Translations under genes and position numbers: made by a program
Shown here: in pieces, positions 28,754-41,462 of the stretch
Position numbering within the stretch: the first letter of the stretch is position 1
Layout of the letters: each line of letters starts with the position of its first letter
The notes under the pieces: generated by a model
Databases searched by the model: none
Seen by the model: the letters and a program-made list of their open reading frames with translations, nothing else
What the model was told of the DNA's origin: nothing
Assembly (NCBI GenBank): GCA_021199305.1
Contig: JAJQIH010000037.1
Span: 64,001-114,596, forward strand
Length of the DNA: 50,596 nucleotides
Origin: Ruminococcus sp.
GTDB lineage: Bacteria; Bacillota; Clostridia; Oscillospirales; Ruminococcaceae
Direction of reading: 5' to 3'

Positions 28754-29779
28754 ATGAATGATGAAATGTATGAAGGTGAACCAGGGGTAGCAGAGGTTCA
28801 GAAAAGGGGACTTGCAAAAAATGCAGCGAAGCTTGGAATCATCCTGATTTTATACGACATCGTATTTTTGTATCTGTCAAAAAAAGCGTTTCTGTATCTT
28901 TATTACTGGTGCGCAACCCGAAACCTTACGAGAGATAAAACTGTAATAAATGCCTTTTACGCAAATACGGATAACTTCTCGTCTTATACAGCCTTTGAGA
29001 TGATTTATTCATGCAGCGTTGTGCTGATGTCGCTTATCCTGGTTTTAATAGCTGCAAGAATAATGGGAATCAAGCTGCTTTCCGTTTTCAAGTCGGAAGA
29101 AAAGGGAGCGGCAAAGGCTGGAATTACTGCCTTTCCTGTTGCTCTTATAATAAATAGCGCAGTTACCACTATCGTAAGCTTTGTCGTCAATCGCATAGAA
29201 AGCAGCGGAGCTGTTATTCCATCGGCTGATTTTTCAATTTCCGATCCTAATGCGGCAGCAATTGTCTTTGAAGCCTTGTACCTTGTGGTTGTAGCGCCGC
29301 TTGCTGAGGAGCTTATTTACAGAGGACTGGTGCTTAAAACCATTGCGCCTTACGGAAAGAAGATAGCTATATTTGTTTCAGCTTTGTTTTTCGGCCTGAT
29401 GCACGGAAATATAAAGCAGTTTATCGGAGCGTTTATCTGCGGAATTATTTTTGCGTCGGTTGATATAAAGTACGGTTCAATTATTCCGTCGCTTATAATT
29501 CACTCGCTTAACAATGCGCTTCCTACCATTTACAATATCGGCTCGGCGGTAGACTCGAACATTTTAATGGTTGCTTACTATGTGCTTTTGTATTCGATAA
29601 TGTTTGTGGGAATTTATATTTTCCTCTCAAAGTACAAAACCTTCACCATTGGCGAGGAACCCAAAACCTCGCTTACAAACGGCGACAAGATAAAAGCTAT
29701 AACGCTTAACATTCCAACCCTTTACGCAATATATCTGGTGTATGTTCTGATTGGAGCTATCGTTACAGCAAACGTGTAA
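28754..29779 (+). CDS. CPBP-family intramembrane metalloprotease (CAAX protease-like)
   Basis: 341 residues, its Shine-Dalgarno GAGGTAAG overlapping the end of metF. About eight membrane helices. The three CPBP motifs are present: EELIYRGLVLKTI (paired Glu and Arg), FGLMHGNIKQF (His) and SLIIHSLNN (His plus Asn). Family members act as type II CAAX prenyl proteases in eukaryotes and as bacteriocin-immunity or membrane-signalling proteases in Firmicutes; the substrate here is unknown. Confidence 0.9.
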   Translation: MNDEMYEGEPGVAEVQKRGLAKNAAKLGIILILYDIVFLYLSKKAFLYLYYWCATRNLTRDKTVINAFYANTDNFSSYTAFEMIYSCSVVLMSLILVLIAARIMGIKLLSVFKSEEKGAAKAGITAFPVALIINSAVTTIVSFVVNRIESSGAVIPSADFSISDPNAAAIVFEALYLVVVAPLAEELIYRGLVLKTIAPYGKKIAIFVSALFFGLMHGNIKQFIGAFICGIIFASVDIKYGSIIPSLIIHSLNNALPTIYNIGSAVDSNILMVAYYVLLYSIMFVGIYIFLSKYKTFTIGEEPKTSLTNGDKIKAITLNIPTLYAIYLVYVLIGAIVTANV

Positions 29780-29789
29780 TTAAAAAATT

Positions 29790-29824
29790 AAGCCTTGCAG
29801 GAATTTTTCCAGCAAGGCTTTTTT
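29790..29824 (+). terminator. Intrinsic terminator after the CPBP gene
   Basis: AAGCCTTGC (29790-29798) and GCAAGGCTT (29812-29820) pair, with an inner GGAA/TTCC helix, followed by a T-run to 29824. Confidence 0.85.
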
Positions 29825-29850
29825 ATTTCAAGACAGAGCAGGGAAGTAAA

Positions 29851-29892
29851 AGAAAGAAGCCCCACTGCCTTTCGGCAGCAAGGCTTCTTTCT
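29851..29892 (-). terminator. Intrinsic terminator of the amt-PII gene
   Basis: AGAAAGAAGCC (29851-29861) and GGCTTCTTTCT (29882-29892) pair around an inner CTGCC/GGCAG hairpin. On the minus strand a T-rich tract follows. Confidence 0.8.
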
Positions 29893-29939
29893 ATATAAGT
29901 GGGATGGGCTTAGTTAATGTGTTTATCCCTTGAACTCAA

Positions 29940-31673
29940 TTAGTCCTCATCCTGTAGTGCGTCGTAACCAACTTCGCCTGTTCTTACCTTAACAACCTCA
30001 GTTACAGGGTAAACGAAGATCTTACCGTCGCCGATGTGACCAGTGTAAAGAGCGCTCTTAGCAGTTTCAATGACCTTGGAAACAGGTACCTTGCAAACTA
30101 CAACCTCAACCTTTGTCTTAGGAAGCAGGTTAGATTCAAGCTCAACTCCTCTGTAGTATTCAGGCTGACCCTTCTGCATACCCATACCGAGTACGTTTGT
30201 AACAGTAACGCCAGTAACTGAAATAGCTTCAAGAGCTGATAGCAACGAATTGAGCTTCTGTCTCTTACAAATCATTACAACCTTAGAAATCTCTGAGTTC
30301 GGAGCTACATAGCTTTCAACCTCAACAGCCTTTTCAACCGGAACCTTAGGAGCAATTGGCGGCTCAGGAATGCTTGATTCGTGCTCAACAGTAGTCTGAG
30401 TGATTTCGATAGCTGGTGCAAAGTCTGCGTAAGAAGATACAAGACCATGCTCTGTAGCGTCAAGACCGATGATTTCTTCTTCACGTGAAGCACGAAGACC
30501 AACAGTTTTCTTGATGGCGAAGAATACGATTACCATTGTTACTATCGTCCAAGCAGCTACTGTAACAACACCGAGTGCCTGCTTGCCGAGAAGTGAGAAT
30601 CCTCCGCCGTAGAAAAGACCAACTAAGTCGTTTCCTGGAGCTGAATCTGTTGCGAATAGTCCAACTGCAAGTGTTCCCCAGATACCGTTCATCATATGTA
30701 CGGCTACTGCACCAACAGGATCGTCAACGTGAAGAACGTAATCTAAGAACCAAACGCCGAATACAACTAGCAATCCAGCAACTAGACCTACGATGAATGC
30801 ACCTGTGCAGTCCATAACATCACAGCCAGCTGTAATTCCTACAAGTCCTGCAAGCGATGCGTTCAGGCACATTGAAACGTCAGGCTTGCCATATTTAATC
30901 CAGGTAAAAATCATACAAGTTACTGTCGCAACAGCAGGAGCAATAGTTGTTGTCAGGAAGATTGAACCGAGCTGACTAACGCTTGTAGCAGCAGCACCGT
31001 TGAATCCGTACCAACCAAACCATAGGATAAAGCAACCTAAAGCTCCAAGTGTAAGGTTGTGTCCCGGGAATGCGTGAACCTTGATTTTTCCGTCCTTGCC
31101 CTTTGTAAACTTACCAATTCGAGGTCCGAGTATAGCTGCACCAACGAGAGCTGAAATACCACCAACCATATGAATAGCACAGGAACCAGCGAAATCGTGG
31201 AAGCCAAGATCAGCTAACCAGCCGCCGCCCCAGATCCAGTGAGCTTCAATCGGGTAAATAAGTCCTGAAATTACCGCCGAGTAAATACAGTAAGAAAGGA
31301 ACTTTGTTCTTTCTGCCATAGCACCCGAAACGATAGTAGCAGTAGTAGCACAGAAAACAAGGTTAAATACGAAGTTTGACCAATCGAAGTTCTCGTATTG
31401 TGTCAAAATGTCAAATCCAGGTTTTCCGATAAAACCTACAAGGTCCTCTCCAAGCAACAAGCTAAATCCGATGATGATGAACATTACAGTACCAATACAG
31501 AAGTCCATCAGGTTCTTCATTATAATGTTACCTGCGTTTTTTGCTCTGGTAAAACCAGTTTCTACCATTGCAAATCCAGCCTGCATCCAGAATACCAAGG
31601 CTGCGCCGATCAGAAACCAGACGCCGAACACTTCAGTATCAACGGCTTCTAAAATTGTTTCAAGTGAATCCAT
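29940..31673 (-). CDS. amt: Ammonium transporter fused to a P-II signalling domain
   Basis: 577 residues; GGGAGAG lies seven bases before the ATG. Residues 1 to about 405 are an Amt channel with 11 helices and conserved segments WMQAGFAMVETGFTRAKNAGN, HMVGGISALVGA and DYVLHVDDPVGAVAVHMMNGIWGT (pore His). A Pro/Glu-rich linker follows, then a complete P-II domain (about 461-577): KVVMICKRQKLNSLLSAL, T-loop GMQKGQPEYYRGVELESN, GDGKIFVYPVTEVVKVRTGE. At the T-loop position of the uridylylated Tyr51 (YRGAEY in GlnB) there is Leu (YRGVEL), so uridylylation at that site is not possible. The fused P-II probably gates the channel directly in response to ATP/ADP and 2-oxoglutarate. It lies downstream of glnN on the same strand. 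Confidence 0.94.
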   Translation of the reverse strand: MDSLETILEAVDTEVFGVWFLIGAALVFWMQAGFAMVETGFTRAKNAGNIIMKNLMDFCIGTVMFIIIGFSLLLGEDLVGFIGKPGFDILTQYENFDWSNFVFNLVFCATTATIVSGAMAERTKFLSYCIYSAVISGLIYPIEAHWIWGGGWLADLGFHDFAGSCAIHMVGGISALVGAAILGPRIGKFTKGKDGKIKVHAFPGHNLTLGALGCFILWFGWYGFNGAAATSVSQLGSIFLTTTIAPAVATVTCMIFTWIKYGKPDVSMCLNASLAGLVGITAGCDVMDCTGAFIVGLVAGLLVVFGVWFLDYVLHVDDPVGAVAVHMMNGIWGTLAVGLFATDSAPGNDLVGLFYGGGFSLLGKQALGVVTVAAWTIVTMVIVFFAIKKTVGLRASREEEIIGLDATEHGLVSSYADFAPAIEITQTTVEHESSIPEPPIAPKVPVEKAVEVESYVAPNSEISKVVMICKRQKLNSLLSALEAISVTGVTVTNVLGMGMQKGQPEYYRGVELESNLLPKTKVEVVVCKVPVSKVIETAKSALYTGHIGDGKIFVYPVTEVVKVRTGEVGYDALQDED

Positions 31674-31705
31674 GAAAATCTCTCCCTTTTCTTTAAAATA
31701 AATAA

Positions 31706-31755
31706 AAGTGCAATCCCGAAAAGGAGGTTTTAATTACATTTTCGGGTTTGCACTT
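31706..31755 (-). promoter_or_regulatory. Long hairpin between glnN and amt (terminator or attenuator)
   Basis: AAGTGCAA plus CCCGAAAA (31706-31722) pairs with TTTTCGGG plus TTGCACTT (31739-31755), giving 16 bp with one mismatch. On the minus strand a discontinuous T-tract follows, then the amt ribosome site. It could end most glnN transcripts and let some read into amt. Its loop contains CCTCC, complementary to a Shine-Dalgarno. Confidence 0.65.
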
Positions 31756-31799
31756 CATTGTACATTATTATTCAGTTTTTTCTATTTCATACCTTTGAA

Positions 31800-33881
31800 T
31801 TATACGTAGAACAGCATCTTTCCATATGTTGGATATGGCCAATACTTTTCGCCGCAGAGCTTTTCAGCTTCATCAGCAGGAGCTCTCAGCTCACCCATTG
31901 CTGTAAATACTACATCGTGGTAGTAGTTAGCAGCTTCCTGAATGTCTTCGATTCCTGTAGCTGTTGTAATGTCGCTCTCAAGAGCTGAAAGCTTAGCATA
32001 AATGTCAGCTTCAAGACCTGATAGCTTCTTGACAAGCTCTGTTTCAAACGAAGCCTCAGCACCACATTCCTTAGAAAGCTTGGCGGTAGACGCTAACTCC
32101 TTGATGTAGGTTGCAATAGCAGGAAGAATATCCTTCTTAGACATATCAACCATCGTAAGAGCTTCGATGTTCAGAATCTTAATGTATTCTTCAAGAAGAA
32201 TCTCAACACGGGAATGAATTTCCGTTTCGGTATAAACGCCGTGTTTTTCAAAAATTTCTACGTTCTTCGGATCAGCAAAGTGAGGAACAGCTTCTGGAGT
32301 AGACTTCAGATTTAAAAGTCCTCTCTTCTCAGCCTCTTCAGGCCATTGTGCGCTGTAGCCGTCGCCGTTGAAGATTATGTTCCAGTTTTCATTGATTGTT
32401 CTCTTGATAAGCTCGTGTAGAGCAGCGTTAAAGTCCTCAGCACCCTCAAGCTCTTCATAGAATTCATCCAGAACATCAGCAACGATTGTATTAAGGATTG
32501 TGTTAGGACCTGCGATTGAAAGCTTGGAACCAGGCATTCTGAATTCGAATTTGTTTCCAGTGAATGCGAAAGGCGAGGTTCTGTTTCTGTCTGTATTGTC
32601 CTTCGGGAAGGAAGGCAATACGTCAACACCGATCTGCATATCCAGAACTCCGTCACCGTCGTAGTCAACATCGTTTCTGATAGCGTCAAGAATTGCTGTA
32701 AGCTCATCACCCAGGAAGATTGAAATGATAGCCGGAGGAGCTTCGTTAGCACCTAATCTGTGGTCGTTACCAGCAGTAGCAACTGAAAGTCTTAGAAGGT
32801 CCTGATGCTCGTTTACCGCCTTGATAACTGCTACTAAGATAGTTAAGAACTGTGCATTCTCAGAAGGAGTAGTACCAGGATCTAACAGGTTTATGCCTGT
32901 ATCTGTTGAAATAGACCAGTTGTTGTGCTTTCCGCTTCCGTTAACGCCAGCGAATGGCTTTTCGTGAAGCAAGCACTTGAAGCCGTGCTTCTTCGCAACC
33001 TTTCTCATAGCCTCCATCATCAGCTGGTTGTGGTCGGTTGCAATATTTGTAGTTGAAAAGATAGGAGCAAGCTCGTGCTGTGCAGGAGCAACCTCATTAT
33101 GCTCGGTCTTAGCCATAATTCCAAGCTTCCATAGCTCCTCGTCAAGATCCTTCATATAAGCGGAAACTCTCATCTTAACGGAACCGAAGTAGTGATCCTC
33201 AAGCTCTTGTCCCTTAGGAGCAGGAGCACCGAAAAGAGTTCTTCCTGTATAAATAAGGTCTTTTCTCTTAGCGTAATCCTCTCTCTCAATCAGGAAGTAT
33301 TCCTGCTCTGCGCCGACTGTTGAAGTTACGCGCTTAGCATCGCTGCCAAACAGCTTCAAAATTCTGAGCGCTGATTTGTTGATAGCTTCCATTGAACGAA
33401 GAAGAGGTGTCTTCTTGTCAAGCGCTTCTCCTGTGTAGGAACAGAAGGCTGTTGGAATACAAAGTGTACCATCCTTGATGAATGCGTAAGAGGTAGGATC
33501 CCATGCGGTATATCCTCTTGCTTCAAATGTCGCTCTCAAGCCACCAGATGGAAAGCTTGAAGCGTCAGGCTCACCCTTGATAAGCTCCTTTCCGGAAAAC
33601 TCCATAATTACCTGACCGTCAACGGTAGGGGAAATGAAGCTGTCGTGCTTTTCAGCTGTAATGCCTGTCATTGGCTGGAACCAGTGAGTAAAGTGCGTAG
33701 CGCCCTTTTCAATCGCCCAGTCCTTCATTGCGTTTGCAACGACATTTGCAACTGTGGTGTCAAGTGTTGTCCCATCCTCGATTGTCTTTTTGATAGCTTT
33801 AAAGGTTTCTTTTGGAAGGCGTTCTTTCATAACCTTAAGGTTGAACACGTCTTCTGCAAATAGCTCAGGAACATTGCTCAT
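31800..33881 (-). CDS. glnN: Glutamine synthetase type III
   Basis: 693 residues from ATG at 33881, nine bases behind GGAGG; the frame extending to 33932 runs through the leader terminator and is rejected. It has GSIII hallmarks: [74 protein letters not shown] and [16 protein letters not shown], plus a large C-terminal domain. It makes glutamine from glutamate, ammonia and ATP. The active-site Glu and His residues appear intact, unlike those of the divergent GS-like gene. Its leader carries a terminator/antiterminator pair and its promoter faces the ANTAR operon. Confidence 0.96.
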
Positions 33882-33911
33882 ATGCTTTGTCCTCCATTCA
33901 TAAAATAAAAT

Positions 33912-33956
33912 AAAAAAAGACACTGCGAGCATAATTACTCACAGCGCCTTTGCTGT
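33912..33956 (-). promoter_or_regulatory. Transcription attenuator with ANTAR-type hexaloop hairpin in the glnN leader
   Basis: On the minus strand the leader starts with ACAGC-AAAGGC-GCTGT (33956-33941), a 5-bp stem with a six-base loop having A at position 1 and G at position 4, the signature of ANTAR-protein RNA sites. Its 3' arm is also the 5' arm of an intrinsic terminator, CGCTGTGAG/CTCGCAGTG (33946-33938 with 33929-33921, two G-U pairs), followed by TC and seven T (33918-33912). The two folds exclude each other. Only one hexaloop hairpin is clear; classical ANTAR sites have two. Confidence 0.65.
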
Positions 33957-33967
33957 TTACAATAAAC

Positions 33968-33996
33968 AGTATATTCCAATATTTTTGATTTGTCAA
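33968..33996 (-). promoter_or_regulatory. glnN promoter
   Basis: On the minus strand TTGACA (33996-33991), 17-nt spacer, TATACT (33973-33968). The predicted start, near 33963, puts the hexaloop hairpin at the very 5' end of the RNA. The rest of the divergent gap (33997-34173) is AT-rich and shows no gene. Confidence 0.8.
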
Positions 33997-34173
33997 GACT
34001 TTTTTGCGTTTTTTGTGAGATTTGTGCAATTTCATAACTGAAAAGCAAAACTTACAGGAATTTTGATACAATTTTTACAAAACGACAGTTTAAATTTGCC
34101 GCCTCAGATATTTTTCTCAGACTTTAAGTTCGCACAATTTCAACTCCGCTTGATTTTTTAATCTGCAAACATC

Positions 34174-34202
34174 TTTACAGCGAGAATTAAATGTGTTAAA
34201 AT
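34174..34202 (+). promoter_or_regulatory. Promoter of the GS-like/ANTAR operon
   Basis: TTTACA (34174-34179), 17-nt spacer, TAAAAT (34197-34202). The leader contains CAAGGC-GTCA-GCCTTG (34222-34237 region), a small hairpin without an adjacent T-run. Confidence 0.6.
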
Positions 34203-34270
34203 AGGAAACGGAGATTAACGCGCAAGGCGTCAGCCTTGAACATACTGATTTTAAATTTTTGGAGGTCAAT

Positions 34271-35545
34271 ATGATTTACACTCAAACGGACGTGCTTCAA
34301 TATGTCAGAGAAAATGATGTAAAATTTGTAAAGCTTCAGTTTTCTGATATTTTCGGCTTTCAGAAGAATATATCTATAAACAGCTCTGAGCTTTACGACG
34401 CTTTTTCAAAGGGCTTTTCCTTAGACGCCTTTTATCAGAGAGGACTTTTAAACTGCGAGAAAAATCTTCTTCTGATTCCCGACGCTTCAACTCTGTCGAT
34501 CCTTCCCTGGCGTCCTCATCAGGGCGGCGTTGCAAGGCTTCTTTGCGATGTCAGAACCTTAGACGGAAACGATTATATCGCCAACAGCCGAACAATACTC
34601 AATAAGGCTGTAAAGGCTGCAAAGCAAAAGGGAATTACATTTAAAATAAAGACCTCCTGCGAATTTTACCTGTTTAAAAACGACGACGACGGAAATCCAA
34701 CTAAAATTCCTCAGGATAATGCAGGATATATGGACGCCGCACCAATGGACAGAGGTGAAAATGTAAGAAGAGAAATCTGCCTGGCACTCGAACAAATGGA
34801 CTTTTCTCCCGAAGCTTCAAGTCACGAGGCAGGCCCTGGACATAATGAGATCGATTTTCAGTATGCTTCTCCTTTGAGTGCTGCCGATAACTTTATTACA
34901 TTTAAATCTGCAGTTAAGAATATTTCCGACATAAACGGTCTGTACGCTACTTTTATGCCAAAGCCGTTTGACGACAAGCCGGGAAGCGGACTTCACATCG
35001 GTATAAAGCTTTACAAAGACAAAAAGAACATCTTCGAGGTTTATCAGCCTGAAAAGGATAAGCTTCAGGAAAACATTATCGCTGGTATTTTAAACAGAAT
35101 AAGCGATATGGCGCTGTTTGCAAGTCCTACTGTCAACAGCTATAAGCGCTTCGGAAAATTCAATGTTTCAAAGGATATTTCCTGGAGCAACAATAATACA
35201 GCTGAGCTTTTAAGAGTTCCCGTAGCGGCGGACAAGAGCGCAAAGCTTATTTTGCGTTCGCCAGACTGCGCTTGCAATCCTTATATTGTATTGGCGCTTA
35301 TTATCTACGCTTGCCTTGAAGGAATTGAAAACGACGAACGCTTATCAGTCGCTTCGTCAAAGCAGATTCCTGAAAATGTAGTCAAAGCAGCAGAGATAGC
35401 CAGCGACAGCGAATTTATAAAGAAGTATATGGACGACGAAATTACAAAGGCTTATAGCGAAATTGCTAAGGAGCAGTATTTAAAATACGAAAACGCCGAG
35501 GATAAGGCGGCATTTGAAACGGAAAATTACTTTTTGACGCTTTGA
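34271..35545 (+). CDS. Glutamine synthetase type I-like protein, probably catalytically inactive
   Basis: 424 residues from ATG at 34271, GGAGG at 34261-34265. The fold is clearly GSI: beta-grasp start VKFVKLQFSDIFGF, then SSHEAGPGHNEIDF, MPKPFDDKPGSGLH, PTVNSYKRF and LRSPDCACNPY. Aligned by eye to enterobacterial GS, E131, E212, E220, H269, R321 and R359 have counterparts (E131, E186, E193, H242, R293, R329). E129 is Ser129, the E327 flap (GYEAP) is replaced by an unrelated stretch, R339 is Asn or Thr, R355 is Lys and E357 is Ile327. The n2 metal site thus loses two of three ligands. It is co-transcribed with the ANTAR regulator and divergent from a normal GSIII, so a sensing role is plausible. 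Confidence 0.85.
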   Translation: MIYTQTDVLQYVRENDVKFVKLQFSDIFGFQKNISINSSELYDAFSKGFSLDAFYQRGLLNCEKNLLLIPDASTLSILPWRPHQGGVARLLCDVRTLDGNDYIANSRTILNKAVKAAKQKGITFKIKTSCEFYLFKNDDDGNPTKIPQDNAGYMDAAPMDRGENVRREICLALEQMDFSPEASSHEAGPGHNEIDFQYASPLSAADNFITFKSAVKNISDINGLYATFMPKPFDDKPGSGLHIGIKLYKDKKNIFEVYQPEKDKLQENIIAGILNRISDMALFASPTVNSYKRFGKFNVSKDISWSNNNTAELLRVPVAADKSAKLILRSPDCACNPYIVLALIIYACLEGIENDERLSVASSKQIPENVVKAAEIASDSEFIKKYMDDEITKAYSEIAKEQYLKYENAEDKAAFETENYFLTL

Positions 35546-35588
35546 TAAATGCTTATCGGTACAAGCTCTGGTTCGGAGGTGATGCTAA

Positions 35589-36158
35589 GTGGAGAGTGTT
35601 TTGATTGTATCGGGAAATGAAAAAGCAACAAATGCCCTCGTCCCGATGCTCAGAGAGTTTGGACATATCAGTATATCGTCAGCGAAAAGCGCATCCGAAG
35701 CTAAAAGAGCTATTTTGTCAAACGATTATGATCTGGTAATGATAAATGCGCCGCTTAGCGATGAGTACGGCTTTGAGCTTGCAGGTCAGGTTTTAAGCAA
35801 TTCTCTGTCGAGCTGTCTTTTTATAGTAAAGGCGGAGCATTTTGAAAGCGCAAGCGCAAAGCTTGAAGGACTCGGAGGCCTTTGCATTTCAAAGCCTGTA
35901 AACAGACTTATGTTCATTCAGGCGTTAAGGTGGATAAGCGCAACAAGAAACAGACTTTTAGGCCTGAAGCAGGAGAACATCAAGCTTCAGAACAAGATAG
36001 AGGAAATGCGAATTGTCAACAGAGCTAAGTTTGCCCTGATGCAATATTTAGGCTTTGACGAAGCGCAGGCACACAGATATATTGAAAAACAGGCAATGGA
36101 TAAACGAGTTACAAAGTACCAGATAGCCACACAGATAATAAAAACATACGAGAACTGA
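35589..36158 (+). CDS. ANTAR-domain RNA-binding antiterminator with degenerate receiver domain
   Basis: 189 residues; GTG start at 35589, eight bases after GGAGGT. Residues 1-118 follow the receiver fold (VLIVSG, DYDLVMINAPLSDEYGFEL, CISKPV with K102), but the phospho-acceptor Asp is Asn53 and the N-terminal acidic pair is missing, so phosphorylation is unlikely. Residues 120-138 form a coiled coil, and 139-189 are an ANTAR domain (NRAKFALMQYLGFDEAQAHRYIEKQAMDKR in two overlapping motifs). ANTAR proteins bind paired hexaloop hairpins and prevent terminator formation. The best target in the window is the glnN leader. NitR, which acts on glnA in solventogenic Clostridium, is a comparable case from the literature as I recall it. 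Confidence 0.9.
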   Translation: MESVLIVSGNEKATNALVPMLREFGHISISSAKSASEAKRAILSNDYDLVMINAPLSDEYGFELAGQVLSNSLSSCLFIVKAEHFESASAKLEGLGGLCISKPVNRLMFIQALRWISATRNRLLGLKQENIKLQNKIEEMRIVNRAKFALMQYLGFDEAQAHRYIEKQAMDKRVTKYQIATQIIKTYEN

Positions 36159-36219
36159 AAGTTAACAGTTTCTTTACAGACAAGCGTGTGAAATTGTAGT
36201 ATAATAAATAAGAAACTAA

Positions 36220-36264
36220 AAGCCAGGATGCTATACCGCTTTCGGGCGGCAAAGCTACCTGCTT
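36220..36264 (+). promoter_or_regulatory. Structured leader RNA of carA
   Basis: A TATAAT -10-like box (36200-36205) is followed by a four-helix hairpin: AAGC/GCTT (36220-36223, 36261-36264), AGG/CCT (36225-36227, 36258-36260), GCT/AGC (36230-36232, 36253-36255) and CCGC/GCGG (36236-36239, 36246-36249), with small symmetric internal loops. No terminator follows and no PyrR-type loop is recognised. It may be a translation-level switch or a protein site. No known family was identified. Confidence 0.5.
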
Positions 36265-36299
36265 ACATAAAAAATTTAAGGAAGAAAGGGGATTTTCTC

Positions 36300-37373
36300 G
36301 TGCAAAAAGCATATCTCATACTTGAAAATGGGACAATTTTTGAGGGAAAAAGCTTTGGTAAAAGCGGCGAGACTGTTGGCGAAATTGTTTTTACAACAGC
36401 CATGACCGGTTATTTGGAAACCTTGACTGATCCCAGTTATTACGGACAGATAGTTGTTCAGACATTTCCTCTTATAGGAAATTACGGAGTTATTCCTTCC
36501 GATTTCGAGAGCGGCCATCCGTATGTTAAGGGTTATATTGTTAGAGATTGGTGTCAAGAGCCTTCAAACTTTCGTTGTGAGGGTGACCTTGACACTTTTT
36601 TAAAGCAGTCAGGAATTGTAGGACTTTATGGAATTGACACCAGAGCGCTGACAAAAATCGTTCGTGAATCAGGAGTAATGAACGGAAAAATTGTAATGGA
36701 GGGTACTACCGATTTCGGCCTTACCGAGCTTAAAAATTATAAAATCATAGGTGCTGTTGAAAATACAACCTGCAAGGAAGAAACGGTTATGCCAGCCATC
36801 GGGGAAACCAAAAGAAGAGTTTGCCTTCTGGACTATGGCGCTAAGAGAAATATTTGCAGAGAGCTTCAGAAGCGTGGTTGCGAGGTAACTGTTCTGCCAG
36901 CAAGCACAACTGCAAAGAGAGTACGCGAGCTTAACCCTGATGGAATAATGCTTTCTAACGGACCGGGCGACCCGGCAGACAACACCGAAATAATCGAGCA
37001 GCTAAAGGAAATGTGTACATTTAATATTCCAATCTTCGGAATTTGCTTAGGACATCAGCTTTTGGCTCTTTCACAGGGAGCCAAAACCGAAAAGCTCAAA
37101 TACGGACACAGAGGAGCTAACCAGCCTGCTTCATACAAGGATACAGGCAGAGTTTATATAACAAGCCAGAATCACGGATACGCTGTAGTTTCAAGCACGT
37201 TGCCTGAGGGAGCTGTTGAAAGCTTCTTTAACGCAAACGACGGAACCTGCGAGGGAGTGGATTACAACTATATGCCGGCATTTTCAGTACAGTTTCACCC
37301 TGAGGCTTGCGGCGGACCGCTTGATACAGGATTTTTGTTCGACAAATTTATCGATATGATAGATAATAACTAG
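36300..37373 (+). CDS. carA: Carbamoyl-phosphate synthase small (glutaminase) subunit
   Basis: 357 residues from GTG at 36300, eight bases after GAAAGGGG; the frame reaching back to 36228 crosses the structured leader. The N-terminal domain (AYLILENGTIFEGKSFG, FTTAMTGYLETLTDPSYYGQ) is followed by a class I amidotransferase with nucleophile Cys in FGICLGHQLLALS and His/Glu in VQFHPEACGGP. It hydrolyses glutamine and passes ammonia to CarB for arginine and pyrimidine synthesis. The carB fusion gene follows after 39 bp. Confidence 0.95.
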   Translation: MQKAYLILENGTIFEGKSFGKSGETVGEIVFTTAMTGYLETLTDPSYYGQIVVQTFPLIGNYGVIPSDFESGHPYVKGYIVRDWCQEPSNFRCEGDLDTFLKQSGIVGLYGIDTRALTKIVRESGVMNGKIVMEGTTDFGLTELKNYKIIGAVENTTCKEETVMPAIGETKRRVCLLDYGAKRNICRELQKRGCEVTVLPASTTAKRVRELNPDGIMLSNGPGDPADNTEIIEQLKEMCTFNIPIFGICLGHQLLALSQGAKTEKLKYGHRGANQPASYKDTGRVYITSQNHGYAVVSSTLPEGAVESFFNANDGTCEGVDYNYMPAFSVQFHPEACGGPLDTGFLFDKFIDMIDNN

Positions 37374-37412
37374 CTACTTGACAAGAAATTTTTTTGAGAA
37401 AGGAAATTGGTT

Positions 37413-40400
37413 ATGCCTTTAAATAAAGAGCTTAAAAGAGTTCTTGTAATCGGTTCGGGTCCTATTGTAATAGGACAGGCGGCGGAGTTTGACTACGCCG
37501 GAACACAGGCTTGCAGGGCTCTTAAAGAAGAGGGACTTGAGGTAATACTTGTAAACTCAAACCCTGCTACAATTATGACAGATAAGGCTATGGCGGACAA
37601 AATTTATATTGAGCCGCTTACCCTTGAAACGGTAAAGAGAATAATTAAAAAGGAGCGTCCGGACAGCCTGCTTTCAACTTTAGGAGGACAGACAGGACTT
37701 ACCCTTTCAATGGAGCTTGCAAAGGAAGGCTTCCTCGATAAATACGGAGTCAAGCTTTTAGGCGCAAGACCAGAAACCATAGATAAAGCTGAGGACAGAC
37801 AGATGTTCAAGGACACTATGGAGTCGATAGGTCAGCCTTGCATTCCTTCAACCGTTGTAAACGACGTTGAGTCGGCGGTTGAATTTGCAAACAGCGAAGG
37901 AATTGGCTACCCGCTTATCATTCGCCCTGCGTTTACGCTCGGCGGAACAGGCGGCGGTATTGTAAACAACGAAGCTGAGCTTCGCGACGTAACAAGAAAC
38001 GGACTTTACTTATCTCCGATCACTCAGGTTCTGGTTGAAAAGTGTATCGCAGGCTGGAAGGAAATCGAGTTTGAGGTAATGCGTGACAGCAAGGGAAATG
38101 TTATTACTGTCTGCTCAATGGAAAACTTCGACCCGGTAGGCGTTCACACAGGAGATTCTATCGTTATTGCGCCAACAGTAACGCTCGCTGATAAGGAATA
38201 TCAGATGCTTCGTTCAGCGGCTTTGAAAATTATCGATACCCTTGAGGTTGAGGGCGGCTGTAACTGTCAGTTTGCATTAAAGCCTGATTCGTTTGAGTAC
38301 GCAGTAATCGAGGTAAACCCGAGAGTTTCACGTTCATCAGCGCTCGCTTCAAAGGCAACAGGCTATCCAATCGCAAAGGTAGCAGCTAAAATTGCAATCG
38401 GCTATACGCTTGACGAAATCAAAAACGCCGTCACAGGAAAAACTTACGCTTGCTTTGAGCCTGCTCTTGACTATGTTGTAGTAAAGCTTCCGAAGTGGCC
38501 GTTTGATAAATTCGTTTACGCTAAGAGAACTCTTGGTACACAGATGAAGGCGACAGGCGAGGTAATGGCAATAGGCACTACCTTTGAGCAGGCAATTATG
38601 AAGGCGGTAAGAGGAGCTGAAATCGGACACGACTGCCTTATAAGCGAACCGCTTCTATCCCTTTCAGACGAAGAGCTGAAGAGCAGAATAAGCGAATGCA
38701 ACGACGAGCGTCTGTTTGTCATTTACGAAAATCTGAGAAGAGGCGTAACGCCTGAATATATTCACGATATTACAAAAATCGACCTTTGGTTTTTGTATAA
38801 GCTCGAAAAGCTTATCGACACAGAAAAGGAGCTGAGAAAGGGCGTTCTGACCGACGAGCTTTATCTTACAGCTAAAAAGCAGGGCTATCTCGATAAGGTT
38901 ATCAAGGAGCTTTCAGGTTGCGAGATTGAAAATCCAAGGCACGCTTCGTTTAAAATGGTTGATACCTGCGCCGCTGAGTTTGCAGCTCAGACACCGTATT
39001 TCTATTCAACATTTGACGACGAGGACGAAGCTTCAAAGCATATAGCGGCTGGTAATTCAGAAAATAAAACGGTTATCGTTTTCGGTTCAGGCCCTATAAG
39101 AATCGGACAGGGAATTGAGTTTGACTATGCGTCGGTACAATGCGTGTGGGCACTGAAACGTCAGGGCTTTGACGTTGTAATTGTAAACAACAACCCGGAA
39201 ACCGTTTCAACAGACTTCGACACAGCGGACAGACTGTATTTTGAACCGCTTACAAACGAAGATGTAATGAACATTATAAATGTCGAAAAGCCATACGGCG
39301 TAGTTGTTGCCTTTGGCGGACAGACCGCTATCAAGCTTACAAAGCATATGGCGGCAAACGGAGTTAATATTTTGGGAACTCCTCCTGACAGCATTGACGC
39401 TGCAGAGGACAGAGAGCGTTTCGACGAGCTTTTAGAGCTTCATAAAATCAAGCGTCCTCAAGGCTTTACTGTTATGACAACAGACGAGGCTTTGGAGGTT
39501 GCAAACAAGCTTCACTACCCGGTATTGATGCGTCCTTCATACGTTTTAGGCGGACAGAATATGATTATCGCCTTTAACGACGACGACATCAAGGAGTATA
39601 TGGCTATTATCTTAGCTCAGGAAATTGAAAATCCAATACTTATTGATAAGTATCTGATGGGACCGGAGCTTGAAGTAGACGCTATTTGCGACGGAGAGGA
39701 TATTTTAATTCCTGGAATTATGGAGCACGTCGAAAGAGCGGGAATACACTCGGGCGACTCAATCGCTGTATATCCTGCATGGAATCTCCCTGACGAAATG
39801 GTAAACAGAATTGTAGAATGTTCAAAGAACCTTGCTGTTTCGTTAAAGACAAAGGGACTTGTAAACATTCAGTATCTGATTTATCACGGCGAGCTTTATG
39901 TAATTGAGGTTAATCCTCGTTCATCGAGAACTATTCCGTACATTTCAAAGGTAACGGGAGTTCCGATGGTTGAGCTTGCTACAAGAGCAATGCTCGGAGA
40001 AAAGCTAAGAGATATGGGCTATGAGCCTGGACTTTATCCGCACTCGCCTTATATGGCAGTAAAGGTTCCTGTTTTCTCGTTCGAGAAGCTTACAGACGTT
40101 GACAACCACTTAGGACCTGAAATGAAGTCAACAGGAGAGGTCTTAGCACTTGCAAATACCCTTGAGGAAGCTTTGTATAAAGGACTTATTGCTGCTGGTT
40201 ATACGCTTGAGAAAAACGGCGGAGTATTTATCACAGTAAGAGATTCAGACAAGCCTGAAATCTCAGAGGTAGCCAAGCAGTTTGAGGATTTAGGCTTTAA
40301 GATTTACGCTACGAGAGGAACCGCTAAAACGCTTGCGGACAACGGAATCAAAGCTCAGGTTGTTGATAAGATCCACGAGGGCGAGAACAATACGCTGAAG

Positions 40401-41462
40401 CTTATCGAAAGCGGAGATATTCAGTATGTAATTTCTACCTCTTCAAAGGGCAGAATGCCATCAAGAGACAGCGTTAAGATAAGAAGAAAAACTGTCGACA
40501 GAAATATTCCTTGTCTTACATCTATCGATACGGCAAACGCAATAGTTTCGTCAATCAGAAGCAAATATTCAGAGCAGTCGACAGAGCTTGTTGATATAAA
40601 CAATATGAGAACCAAAAAGCAAAAGGTTAAGTTCTCAAAAATGCACGGTTGCGGAAACGATTACATTTACTTTAACTGCTTCGACCAGAGAATTGATAAT
40701 CCTGAAGGACTTTCTATCAGACTTTCGGACAGGCACTTTGGCATCGGCGGCGACGGAGTAATTTTAATCTGCAAGTCAAAGGTAGCCGACGGAAAGATGA
40801 GAATGTTCAATCTTGACGGAAGCGAAGGAAAAATGTGCGGCAACGGAATAAGATGCGTCGCTAAGTTTATGAGAGATAACGGACTTGTCGACAAGGATAA
40901 GTTTGAAATCGAAACGCTTAGCGGAATTATCGGCGTTGAGCTTATGAGGCATTACGGCGAGGTTGTCGGCGCAAGAGTAGATATGGGCAAGGCGGTTCTG
41001 AACCCTGCTGAGATTCCTGTAAAGTTTGAGGGCGACAAGGTAATAAACAAGCCTGTTACAATTGGCGACAGGGAATGGAACATTACCTGTGTTTCAATGG
41101 GTAACCCTCATTGCGTTACATTTATAAAGAACGTCGATACGTTTGAGCTTGAAAAGTACGGACCGATGTTTGAATACAATGAGCTTTTCCCTGAAAGAGT
41201 AAACGCTGAGTTTATTCAATTTATTGACAAGAATACTCTTAAAATGAGAGTATGGGAAAGAGGAAGCGGCGAAACCTGGGCTTGCGGAACAGGCGCTTGT
41301 GCAAGCGTTGTAGCAGCTTGTGAAAACGGATACTGCAACAGAGATGAGGACATAACCGTTAAGCTCTTAGGCGGAAATTTAACTGTCAGGTATTCGTCGG
41401 ACGGCGAAGTGTTCTTATCAGGAGATGCTGTAAACGTATTTGACGGAGAGGTTATTATATAG
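37413..41462 (+). CDS. carB-dapF: Carbamoyl-phosphate synthase large subunit fused to diaminopimelate epimerase
   Basis: 1349 residues from ATG at 37413 (AAAGGA at 37399-37404). Residues 1-1064 are a full CarB: two ATP-grasp halves (GSGPIVIGQAAEFDYAGTQ and GSGPIRIGQGIEFDYASVQ) and the MGS-like allosteric domain near 930-1055. Without a stop codon it continues into DapF (about 1065-1349): FSKMHGCGNDYIYF, catalytic Cys in KMCGNGIRC and Cys in WACGTGACAS, both present. An internal ATG (40605) has no ribosome site, so the epimerase is made as a fusion. It joins carbamoyl-phosphate synthesis to LL- to meso-diaminopimelate epimerisation for lysine and peptidoglycan. The following gene, dapL, makes the epimerase's substrate. 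Confidence 0.93.
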   Translation: MPLNKELKRVLVIGSGPIVIGQAAEFDYAGTQACRALKEEGLEVILVNSNPATIMTDKAMADKIYIEPLTLETVKRIIKKERPDSLLSTLGGQTGLTLSMELAKEGFLDKYGVKLLGARPETIDKAEDRQMFKDTMESIGQPCIPSTVVNDVESAVEFANSEGIGYPLIIRPAFTLGGTGGGIVNNEAELRDVTRNGLYLSPITQVLVEKCIAGWKEIEFEVMRDSKGNVITVCSMENFDPVGVHTGDSIVIAPTVTLADKEYQMLRSAALKIIDTLEVEGGCNCQFALKPDSFEYAVIEVNPRVSRSSALASKATGYPIAKVAAKIAIGYTLDEIKNAVTGKTYACFEPALDYVVVKLPKWPFDKFVYAKRTLGTQMKATGEVMAIGTTFEQAIMKAVRGAEIGHDCLISEPLLSLSDEELKSRISECNDERLFVIYENLRRGVTPEYIHDITKIDLWFLYKLEKLIDTEKELRKGVLTDELYLTAKKQGYLDKVIKELSGCEIENPRHASFKMVDTCAAEFAAQTPYFYSTFDDEDEASKHIAAGNSENKTVIVFGSGPIRIGQGIEFDYASVQCVWALKRQGFDVVIVNNNPETVSTDFDTADRLYFEPLTNEDVMNIINVEKPYGVVVAFGGQTAIKLTKHMAANGVNILGTPPDSIDAAEDRERFDELLELHKIKRPQGFTVMTTDEALEVANKLHYPVLMRPSYVLGGQNMIIAFNDDDIKEYMAIILAQEIENPILIDKYLMGPELEVDAICDGEDILIPGIMEHVERAGIHSGDSIAVYPAWNLPDEMVNRIVECSKNLAVSLKTKGLVNIQYLIYHGELYVIEVNPRSSRTIPYISKVTGVPMVELATRAMLGEKLRDMGYEPGLYPHSPYMAVKVPVFSFEKLTDVDNHLGPEMKSTGEVLALANTLEEALYKGLIAAGYTLEKNGGVFITVRDSDKPEISEVAKQFEDLGFKIYATRGTAKTLADNGIKAQVVDKIHEGENNTLKLIESGDIQYVISTSSKGRMPSRDSVKIRRKTVDRNIPCLTSIDTANAIVSSIRSKYSEQSTELVDINNMRTKKQKVKFSKMHGCGNDYIYFNCFDQRIDNPEGLSIRLSDRHFGIGGDGVILICKSKVADGKMRMFNLDGSEGKMCGNGIRCVAKFMRDNGLVDKDKFEIETLSGIIGVELMRHYGEVVGARVDMGKAVLNPAEIPVKFEGDKVINKPVTIGDREWNITCVSMGNPHCVTFIKNVDTFELEKYGPMFEYNELFPERVNAEFIQFIDKNTLKMRVWERGSGETWACGTGACASVVAACENGYCNRDEDITVKLLGGNLTVRYSSDGEVFLSGDAVNVFDGEVII

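Follow-up and report, generated by a model that had tools for sequence, protein, structure and literature searches.

The window, which is the whole 50,596-nucleotide stretch of Ruminococcus sp. DNA that was analyzed, carries a gene for a glutamine synthetase (GS)-like protein (P0001) followed on the same strand by a gene for a REC-ANTAR protein (P0002). The GTG start codon of the second gene (35589) lies 43 bp past the P0001 stop codon, which confirms the spacing given in the original prediction. A gene for a GSIII is encoded divergently from this pair, with a putative leader RNA at its 5′ end and an ammonium transporter gene downstream (Table 1). The host genome (G000; 1.74 Mb, 99.96% complete) was found to contain two genes with a Gln-synt_C domain, those for P0001 and GSIII, and one ANTAR gene, that for P0002 beside P0001.

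Table 1. Features of the locus, with coordinates in the window
Feature	Coordinates	Strand	Remarks
GS-like protein P0001	34271..35545 (ORF); 34271-35542 (residues)	+	424 aa, ATG start; GSI-alpha fold (predicted)
Losses in P0001			both n2 carboxylates, flap glutamate, R339; from alignment to E. coli GlnA
REC-ANTAR protein P0002, NitR-type	35589..36158	+	189 aa, GTG start; pseudo-receiver (N53)
GSIII (glnN-type)	31800..33881	-	probable target gene; GS motifs present
Predicted GSIII promoter	33968..33996	-	TTGACA-17-TATACT
Single hexaloop hairpin, proposed antiterminator	33941..33956	-	ACAGC-AAAGGC-GCUGU; A1 and G4
Intrinsic terminator	33912..33951	-	reuses the hairpin's loop and 3′ arm; precedes the GSIII start codon
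Second, weaker hexaloop candidate with terminator	31700..31764	-	UGUAC-AAUGAA-GUGCA; between GSIII and amtB
Ammonium transporter (AmtB) with C-terminal PII domain	29940..31673	-	downstream of GSIII

P0001 matches the Pfam models Gln-synt_C (246 bits) and Gln-synt_N (54 bits), and its score against the NCBIfam GlnA model (271 bits) is below the cut-off of 429 bits. Its closest solved relative is the GSI of M. mazei (E 5.5e-86). An AlphaFold2 model built from P0001 and 34 relatives (mean pLDDT 86.7, pTM 0.91) superposes on GSI-alpha structures with TM scores of 0.88-0.92 at 32-37% identity among the 50 matches listed, in agreement with the GSI fold that had been proposed. By the homology of its N- and C-terminal domains and its modeled fold, P0001 would be counted as a member of the GSI group.

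The active site was read from a MAFFT alignment that includes relatives, using the residue numbering of E. coli GlnA (L134). In enterobacterial GS, the roles of the residues considered here in binding the n1 and n2 metals, forming the flap and binding phosphate are established. At the six metal-ligand positions 129, 131, 212, 220, 269 and 357, P0001 has S, E, E, E, H and I, so that E131, E212, E220 and H269 are kept, as are R321, R344 and R359. Position 327 is N, position 339 is T, and positions 352 and 355 are both K. The stretches around 129 (KTSCEFY versus GSECEFY in intact relatives) and 357 (KLILRSPD versus RMELRSPD) align free of gaps, and the losses at these two positions are therefore not alignment artefacts. 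The flap is the sole such region that differs in length, with KFNVSK in P0001 versus GYEAP in E. coli; intact linked relatives of the same spacing as P0001 have FEAP here. All the substitutions listed in the original prediction (Ser for E129, Ile for E357, Asn or Thr for R339, Lys for R355 and a replaced flap) are recovered by this alignment, with Thr at 339, and the four retained ligands named there have the counterparts claimed. When GSI membership is judged by the metal ligands together with E327 and R339, P0001 falls outside the group (E129S, E357I, E327N, R339T).

Without its two n2 carboxylates, R339 and the glutamate of the flap, P0001 is very unlikely to synthesize glutamine, on the evidence of the alignment. 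In the presumed alignment column of Arg62 of Bacillus GS, placed with the Bacillus sequence, P0001 has N, and R is present in 2 of 119 linked proteins (those encoded upstream of an ANTAR gene in the survey below) versus all five unlinked GSI-alpha proteins. In Bacillus, GlnR is described as binding in the active-site cavity of feedback-inhibited GS, where Glu304 (equivalent to E327) and Arg62 help to hold glutamine (PMC9249791). The absence of both residues speaks against P0001 as a simple glutamine-feedback sensor, and glutamine, if it is sensed, would have to be held differently. The earlier view, in which P0001 cannot make glutamine and would sense glutamine, glutamate or a nucleotide for the ANTAR protein, is partly supported: it stands in its catalytic part, at the strength just given, and is disfavored in its simplest sensory form.

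P0002 has a C-terminal ANTAR domain (PF03861, 57.6 bits versus a cut-off of 27.3) and an N-terminal match to the receiver domain (PF00072, 24.4 bits) that is under the cut-off of 30.2. This arrangement of an ANTAR domain behind a receiver-like domain would correspond to the NitR-type layout, a label that is taken from gene order and the literature on C. saccharobutylicum NitR. The phospho-acceptor aspartate is replaced by N53 and the acidic pair is absent, which makes the domain a pseudo-receiver and not a phosphorylatable receiver of the two-component type. The same is common among relatives: the phospho-acceptor position is N in 107 and D in 2 of the 119 linked partners, and among the 79 partners at named loci 60 have N and 11 have D, while the acidic pair of the linked partners has D or E at its first position in 0/119 and at its second in 11/119. 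The signal for P0002 should then come from a protein or ligand and not from a kinase, and the missing phosphorylation site favors a protein partner as the input. P0002 probably controls nitrogen genes.

The original prediction proposed a search for GS-like/ANTAR gene pairs in other Clostridia, and this search was positive. Among 197 genomes of the family, 144 matches were listed in 130 genomes, of which 14 were left out (contig-end or GSI-beta pieces in G128, G173, G196 and G077, and GSIII cross-hits) and 130 loci were read. A REC-ANTAR open reading frame follows on the same strand in 119 of these loci, at a distance (to the stop-to-stop frame) of no more than 100 nt in 114. The 11 loci that have no ANTAR gene comprise five canonical GSI-alpha and six GSI-beta genes, and all 11 proteins keep the six metal ligands and E327. 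At the named loci (the 80 of 541 that rank closest to the P0001 group), an ANTAR match lies downstream in 79; L280 ends 115 nt past the gene, and the ANTAR match of L297 is an 84-aa piece. The pair is kept in many Clostridia and some Treponema. In four Ruminococcus loci (L261, L264, L265 and L288) the two open reading frames are 700-930 nt apart. Five genomes have two GS-like loci, each with an ANTAR gene of its own (L034/L103, L028/L106, L049/L121, L021/L037 and L072/L127).

The linked proteins differ widely in what remains of the active site. All six metal ligands and E327 are kept in 54 of the 119, and these proteins may be active enzymes to judge by their residues. In 27 the metal ligands are kept and E327 is lost (K in 22, D in 3, G in 1, R in 1), and 38, in 36 genomes, miss at least one metal ligand. 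The proteins with K at position 327 (L038, L065, L071, L072, L080, L083, L090, L093, L097-L103, L107, L109, L110 and L112-L115) or R (L096) possibly bind nucleotide and glutamate without using ammonia. A metal ligand is lost in 38/119 linked versus 0/11 unlinked proteins (Fisher p 0.03), and a metal ligand or E327 in 65/119 versus 0/11 (p 0.0006), both p values being uncorrected for kinship. Dismantled sites at named loci include those of R. albus AR67, R. bicirculans 80/3 and R. flavefaciens YL228, and sites that look intact include those of Clostridium celatum, Niameybacter, most Treponema loci and others.

In a quick maximum-likelihood tree, computed without a mixture model and with the active-site stretches left out, the 119 linked proteins form one clade (SH-aLRT 98). 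P0001 is placed inside a group of 12 rows (SH-aLRT 92), all of which have E129S and I, L or V at position 357, and in which positions 327 and 339 vary freely. Metal-ligand loss accounts for at least 12 changes on this tree (nine for E129 alone and four for E357 alone), twelve being a rough figure because the tree is quick, has no mixture model, and the count is blind to gain versus loss. This repeated loss of catalytic residues in relatives suggests an enzyme turned nitrogen sensor.

The host’s GSIII was originally put forward as its genuine GS, which agrees with the GS motifs read directly in its sequence, presumably the counterparts of known GS active-site motifs, and with its being the only other GS gene found. 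GSIII was found in 183 of the 197 family genomes and in 113 of the 114 genomes that have a linked GS-like gene, which offers a reason why catalysis by the GS-like protein could be lost. In the single exception (G141, 98% complete) GSIII was not found; its linked protein (L027) has all six metal ligands, E327D and R339T, and is either the sole GS of that genome or the result of an assembly gap. Two genomes without GSIII (G102 and G123) are among the five that carry a canonical unlinked GSI-alpha. Adjacency to GSIII was considered as the key linkage of the GS-like gene and dropped, GSIII having been found in the 1.5-2 kb flanks of only 20 of the 119 linked loci.

The predicted GSIII leader has the hallmark of an ANTAR target, a hexaloop with A at position 1 and G at position 4 that overlaps a terminator. 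The loop and 3′ arm of the hairpin form the 5′ side of the terminator, which ends in seven U. In folding calculations, the initial 20 nt of the predicted transcript give the hexaloop hairpin, and the longer transcript gives the terminator. A dual hexaloop (P1 and P2) was found on neither strand of the window with stems of at least 4 bp, at least two GC pairs and a linker of 2-20 nt; the hexaloop of the GSIII leader is close after the −10 box, and the predicted start site, if right, leaves no room for P1. The weaker candidate between GSIII and amtB is present at L234 too. Upstream of P0001, no leader was found by pattern or by model, nor in positions 33861-34290 aligned with eight near relatives, and the same type of leader precedes the GS-like gene in other lineages.

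Leaders of this class also occur in relatives. Among hairpins with 6-nt loops that lie 10-22 nt past a promoter and overlap a terminator, in the set of loci used for this count, 64 have the A1/G4 letters and the 15 remaining letter pairs occur 0-2 times each. At GSIII loci, 22 of the best 30 carry such a leader (loop AANGRY) on the gene’s strand of the fetched stretch, in some cases before asnA or another upstream gene, and these leaders occur in 21/26 loci of ANTAR-containing genomes versus 1/4 of genomes that lack ANTAR genes. Leaders also precede asnA, amtB, carA, gdhA, pyrG, purA and dapF (one or two representatives of each were checked), and genes for LL-diaminopimelate aminotransferase, glmS, N-acetyl sugar amidotransferase and a protein with a class-II glutamine amidotransferase domain (representatives checked). 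The leader targets in relatives are ammonia and glutamine genes. Paired leader matches, one on each strand and separated by less than 200 nt, occur on G187:C111, G114:C1, G115:C12, G051:C1 and G131:C17, an arrangement that suggests shared control of two divergent transcripts.

A model of the leader (R1), which includes the promoter, was built from 43 sequences of 36 genomes with and one genome without an ANTAR gene; its E-values are rough. Covariation counts are inflated, the sequences having been picked for pairing, and the loop-letter control and co-occurrence tests are independent of them. At E<=1e-4, R1 matches 79 of 144 family genomes with an ANTAR gene versus 0 of 53 without (relatedness uncorrected), or 49/108 versus 0/52 when the 37 training genomes are removed; at E<=1e-3 the counts are 107/144 versus 6/53. 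No match at 1e-4 was found in 65 of the 144. The zero count for ANTAR-free family genomes at E<=1e-4 is not explained by lack of the GSIII target, because 40 of the 53 have GSIII. In the class outside the family, R1 matches 40/141 ANTAR-containing versus 5/146 ANTAR-free genomes at E<=1e-4 (relatedness uncorrected) and 62/141 versus 10/146 at E<=1e-3. In the host genome the GSIII leader alone is a strong match (57.4 bits); in the next seven (28.3-24 bits), inspection by eye found no hexaloop joined to a terminator.

A GS-like partner is not obligatory, since in 28 ANTAR-containing genomes none of the loci found is a linked GS-like gene (G128 and G173 not counted). No GS match was present at the 20 partnerless ANTAR loci inspected (L214-L233), where the ANTAR gene is often beside look-alikes, identified by eye, of dapF, LL-diaminopimelate aminotransferase, purA, pyrG or carA. 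Because eleven of the 28 genomes carry R1 matches at E<=1e-4, the ANTAR-RNA arm does not need the GS-like protein in order to exist.

GS genes were already known to pair with ANTAR genes. In the glnA-nitR system of C. saccharobutylicum, the GS is an active enzyme. Both there and in the window an ANTAR antiterminator is tied to GS/GOGAT genes; the window differs in that the active site of P0001 is dismantled and the GS motifs are carried by GSIII. NitR is reported to work by antitermination and to switch on GS/GOGAT genes when nitrogen is limiting (PMC6316151). In C. thermocellum, the ANTAR gene Clo1313_2030 is described within a cluster (Clo1313_2030-2036) that contains GS-GOGAT genes, with Clo1313_2031 annotated as a glutamine synthetase (PMC4676874), which looks like the same gene pair. 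The feedback-inhibited GS of Bacillus that signals to GlnR and TnrA is a GSI-alpha protein acting on a transcription regulator, as P0001 would be; P0001 differs in that its partner would be an RNA-binding antiterminator, in lacking Glu304 and Arg62, and in that no catalysis is expected of it. AmiC-AmiR and NasS-NasT are described as ANTAR proteins under a neighboring ligand-binding protein related to a metabolic protein (PMC3795266, PMC3369936), and AmiR as having a non-phosphorylated pseudo-receiver (PMC3369936). P0001 and P0002 resemble AmiC-AmiR in their adjacent genes and pseudo-receiver, and differ from both systems in that the candidate sensor has a GS fold in place of that of a binding-protein relative. 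Known ANTAR targets are reported to have two conserved letters in the hexaloop, A1 and G4 (PMC8934654, PMC3369931), and to be dual hexaloops, EutV having bound a single stem-loop less well (PMC3369931). The GSIII leader shares with EutV and NasR leaders an A1/G4 hexaloop that overlaps an intrinsic terminator upstream of nitrogen genes, and departs from them in having one hexaloop, close after the −10 box. Searches of the open-licence literature found no description of ANTAR leaders with a single hexaloop, nor of a GS that has lost catalysis and has an ANTAR protein as its partner.

The preferred reading, with a probability of about 0.6, is that P0001, a GSI homologue without catalytic activity, has been retained because it regulates the NitR-type ANTAR antiterminator encoded next to it, as its partner. 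A GS-like partner, an ANTAR protein that cannot be phosphorylated and leaders on ammonia and glutamine genes are pieces that fit a nitrogen switch, for which we infer the physical complex, the ligand, the direction of switching and the binding of the ANTAR protein to RNA. In such a switch, the activity of the unphosphorylated P0002 would be set by its binding to an oligomer of the GS-like protein, whose remodeled active-site cavity would read nitrogen status. Under nitrogen excess, the GS-like protein would hold the ANTAR protein inactive, as AmiC does AmiR, NasS does NasT and feedback-inhibited GS does TnrA. When nitrogen is short, the ANTAR protein would be released to bind the 5′-terminal hexaloop of its target transcripts and block the overlapping terminator, allowing transcription of GSIII and, in relatives, of other ammonia and glutamine genes. 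The alternative to sequestration would be templated activation of the kind seen with GlnR. The single strong R1 leader in the host genome, at GSIII, and the lack of one before P0001 count against the preferred reading. So do the ANTAR-containing genomes without a linked GS-like gene, the 54 linked proteins with all metal ligands and E327, the dual form of the known ANTAR target, the genomes in which R1 matches and ANTAR genes do not coincide, and the linked gene of G141, where GSIII was not found. A broader reading is more tentative, at somewhat less than an even chance: throughout the class, Clostridia would use a nitrogen switch whose sensor is a GSI paralogue, working through an ANTAR protein that cannot be phosphorylated and that reads single-hexaloop leaders on ammonia and glutamine genes. 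Takeover of glutamine synthesis by GSIII would have freed the sensor from catalysis, and the active site would have been dismantled about a dozen times while the regulatory pair was kept. On this view P0001 would be a pseudoenzyme devoted to sensing, and R. albus, R. bicirculans and R. flavefaciens would have its counterparts.

Other explanations differ in whether P0001 has a function at all, and in which one. P0001 is under strong purifying selection: comparison with a 96% identical protein (L234, Ruminococcus sp. AH.5_1) gives a Ka/Ks of 0.069 at a dS of 0.25, and eight further pairs within dismantled groups give 0.025-0.073, with dS saturated in some. A decaying pseudogene was ruled out by these nine values, all far below 1. 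The loss of catalytic residues could be expected of a useless duplicate in decay, but the Ka/Ks ratios, the intact frame and an entire group of relatives with the same losses reduce the chance of this to almost nothing. Selection, together with the four retained metal ligands and R321, R344 and R359, would also suit an enzyme of altered chemistry or substrate, such as another gamma-glutamyl ligase. This is highly improbable: P0001 has lost the two n2 carboxylates, the glutamate of the flap and R339, which binds phosphate, and the free variation at 327 and 339 in the 12-row group is unlike a new active site.

If P0001 is a regulator, its partner might be a protein other than P0002. It could join or inhibit the adjoining, divergently encoded GSIII, or bind the AmtB-PII fusion encoded after it, but the quaternary structure of GSIII differs from that of GSI. 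GSIII was found in the flank of 20/119 linked loci and AmtB in that of 5/130 (flanks of 1.5-2 kb), versus 119/130 for ANTAR genes. Contacts between archaeal GS and GlnK are reported (PMC6316151), and this kind of partnership is judged distinctly doubtful for P0001. It is a little less doubtful, and still unlikely, that the ANTAR protein functions independently of its GS-like neighbor, the shared operon reflecting common nitrogen metabolism only and P0001 doing something else. Co-transcription with a regulator is common, and genomes that lack a linked GS-like gene can still have ANTAR genes and leaders; against this, linkage outlives catalytic death in many lineages, the two GS-like loci of five genomes each have their own ANTAR gene, and a pseudo-receiver needs some non-phosphoryl input. 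The preferred reading remains the dead GSI homologue as partner of P0002.

Several gut and rumen Ruminococcus genomes carry a gene of the P0001 type, which annotation would tend to call glutamine synthetase. If the protein is a sensor, models of nitrogen metabolism in these organisms count an enzyme that is absent. If catalysis was lost again and again while the regulator was kept, nature would have done an experiment that parts the signaling role of GS from its enzymatic role, a question raised by work on Bacillus. The leader element provides the ANTAR protein with a defined, testable regulon, and it suggests ANTAR targets with one hexaloop, which searches for dual hairpins would miss.

A search of positions 29500-37500 against Rfam gave three matches up to E 1, all under their gathering scores; one of these, to the trpB motif (29743-29829 on the forward strand, 34 bits versus a cut-off of 59), is at the end of the open reading frame 28754-29779. 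Further along the forward strand (37407-41462), a single frame of 1351 aa joins carB (carbamoyl-phosphate synthase large chain) to dapF (diaminopimelate epimerase), with Pfam matches in the order CPSase domains, MGS and two DAP_epimerase matches.
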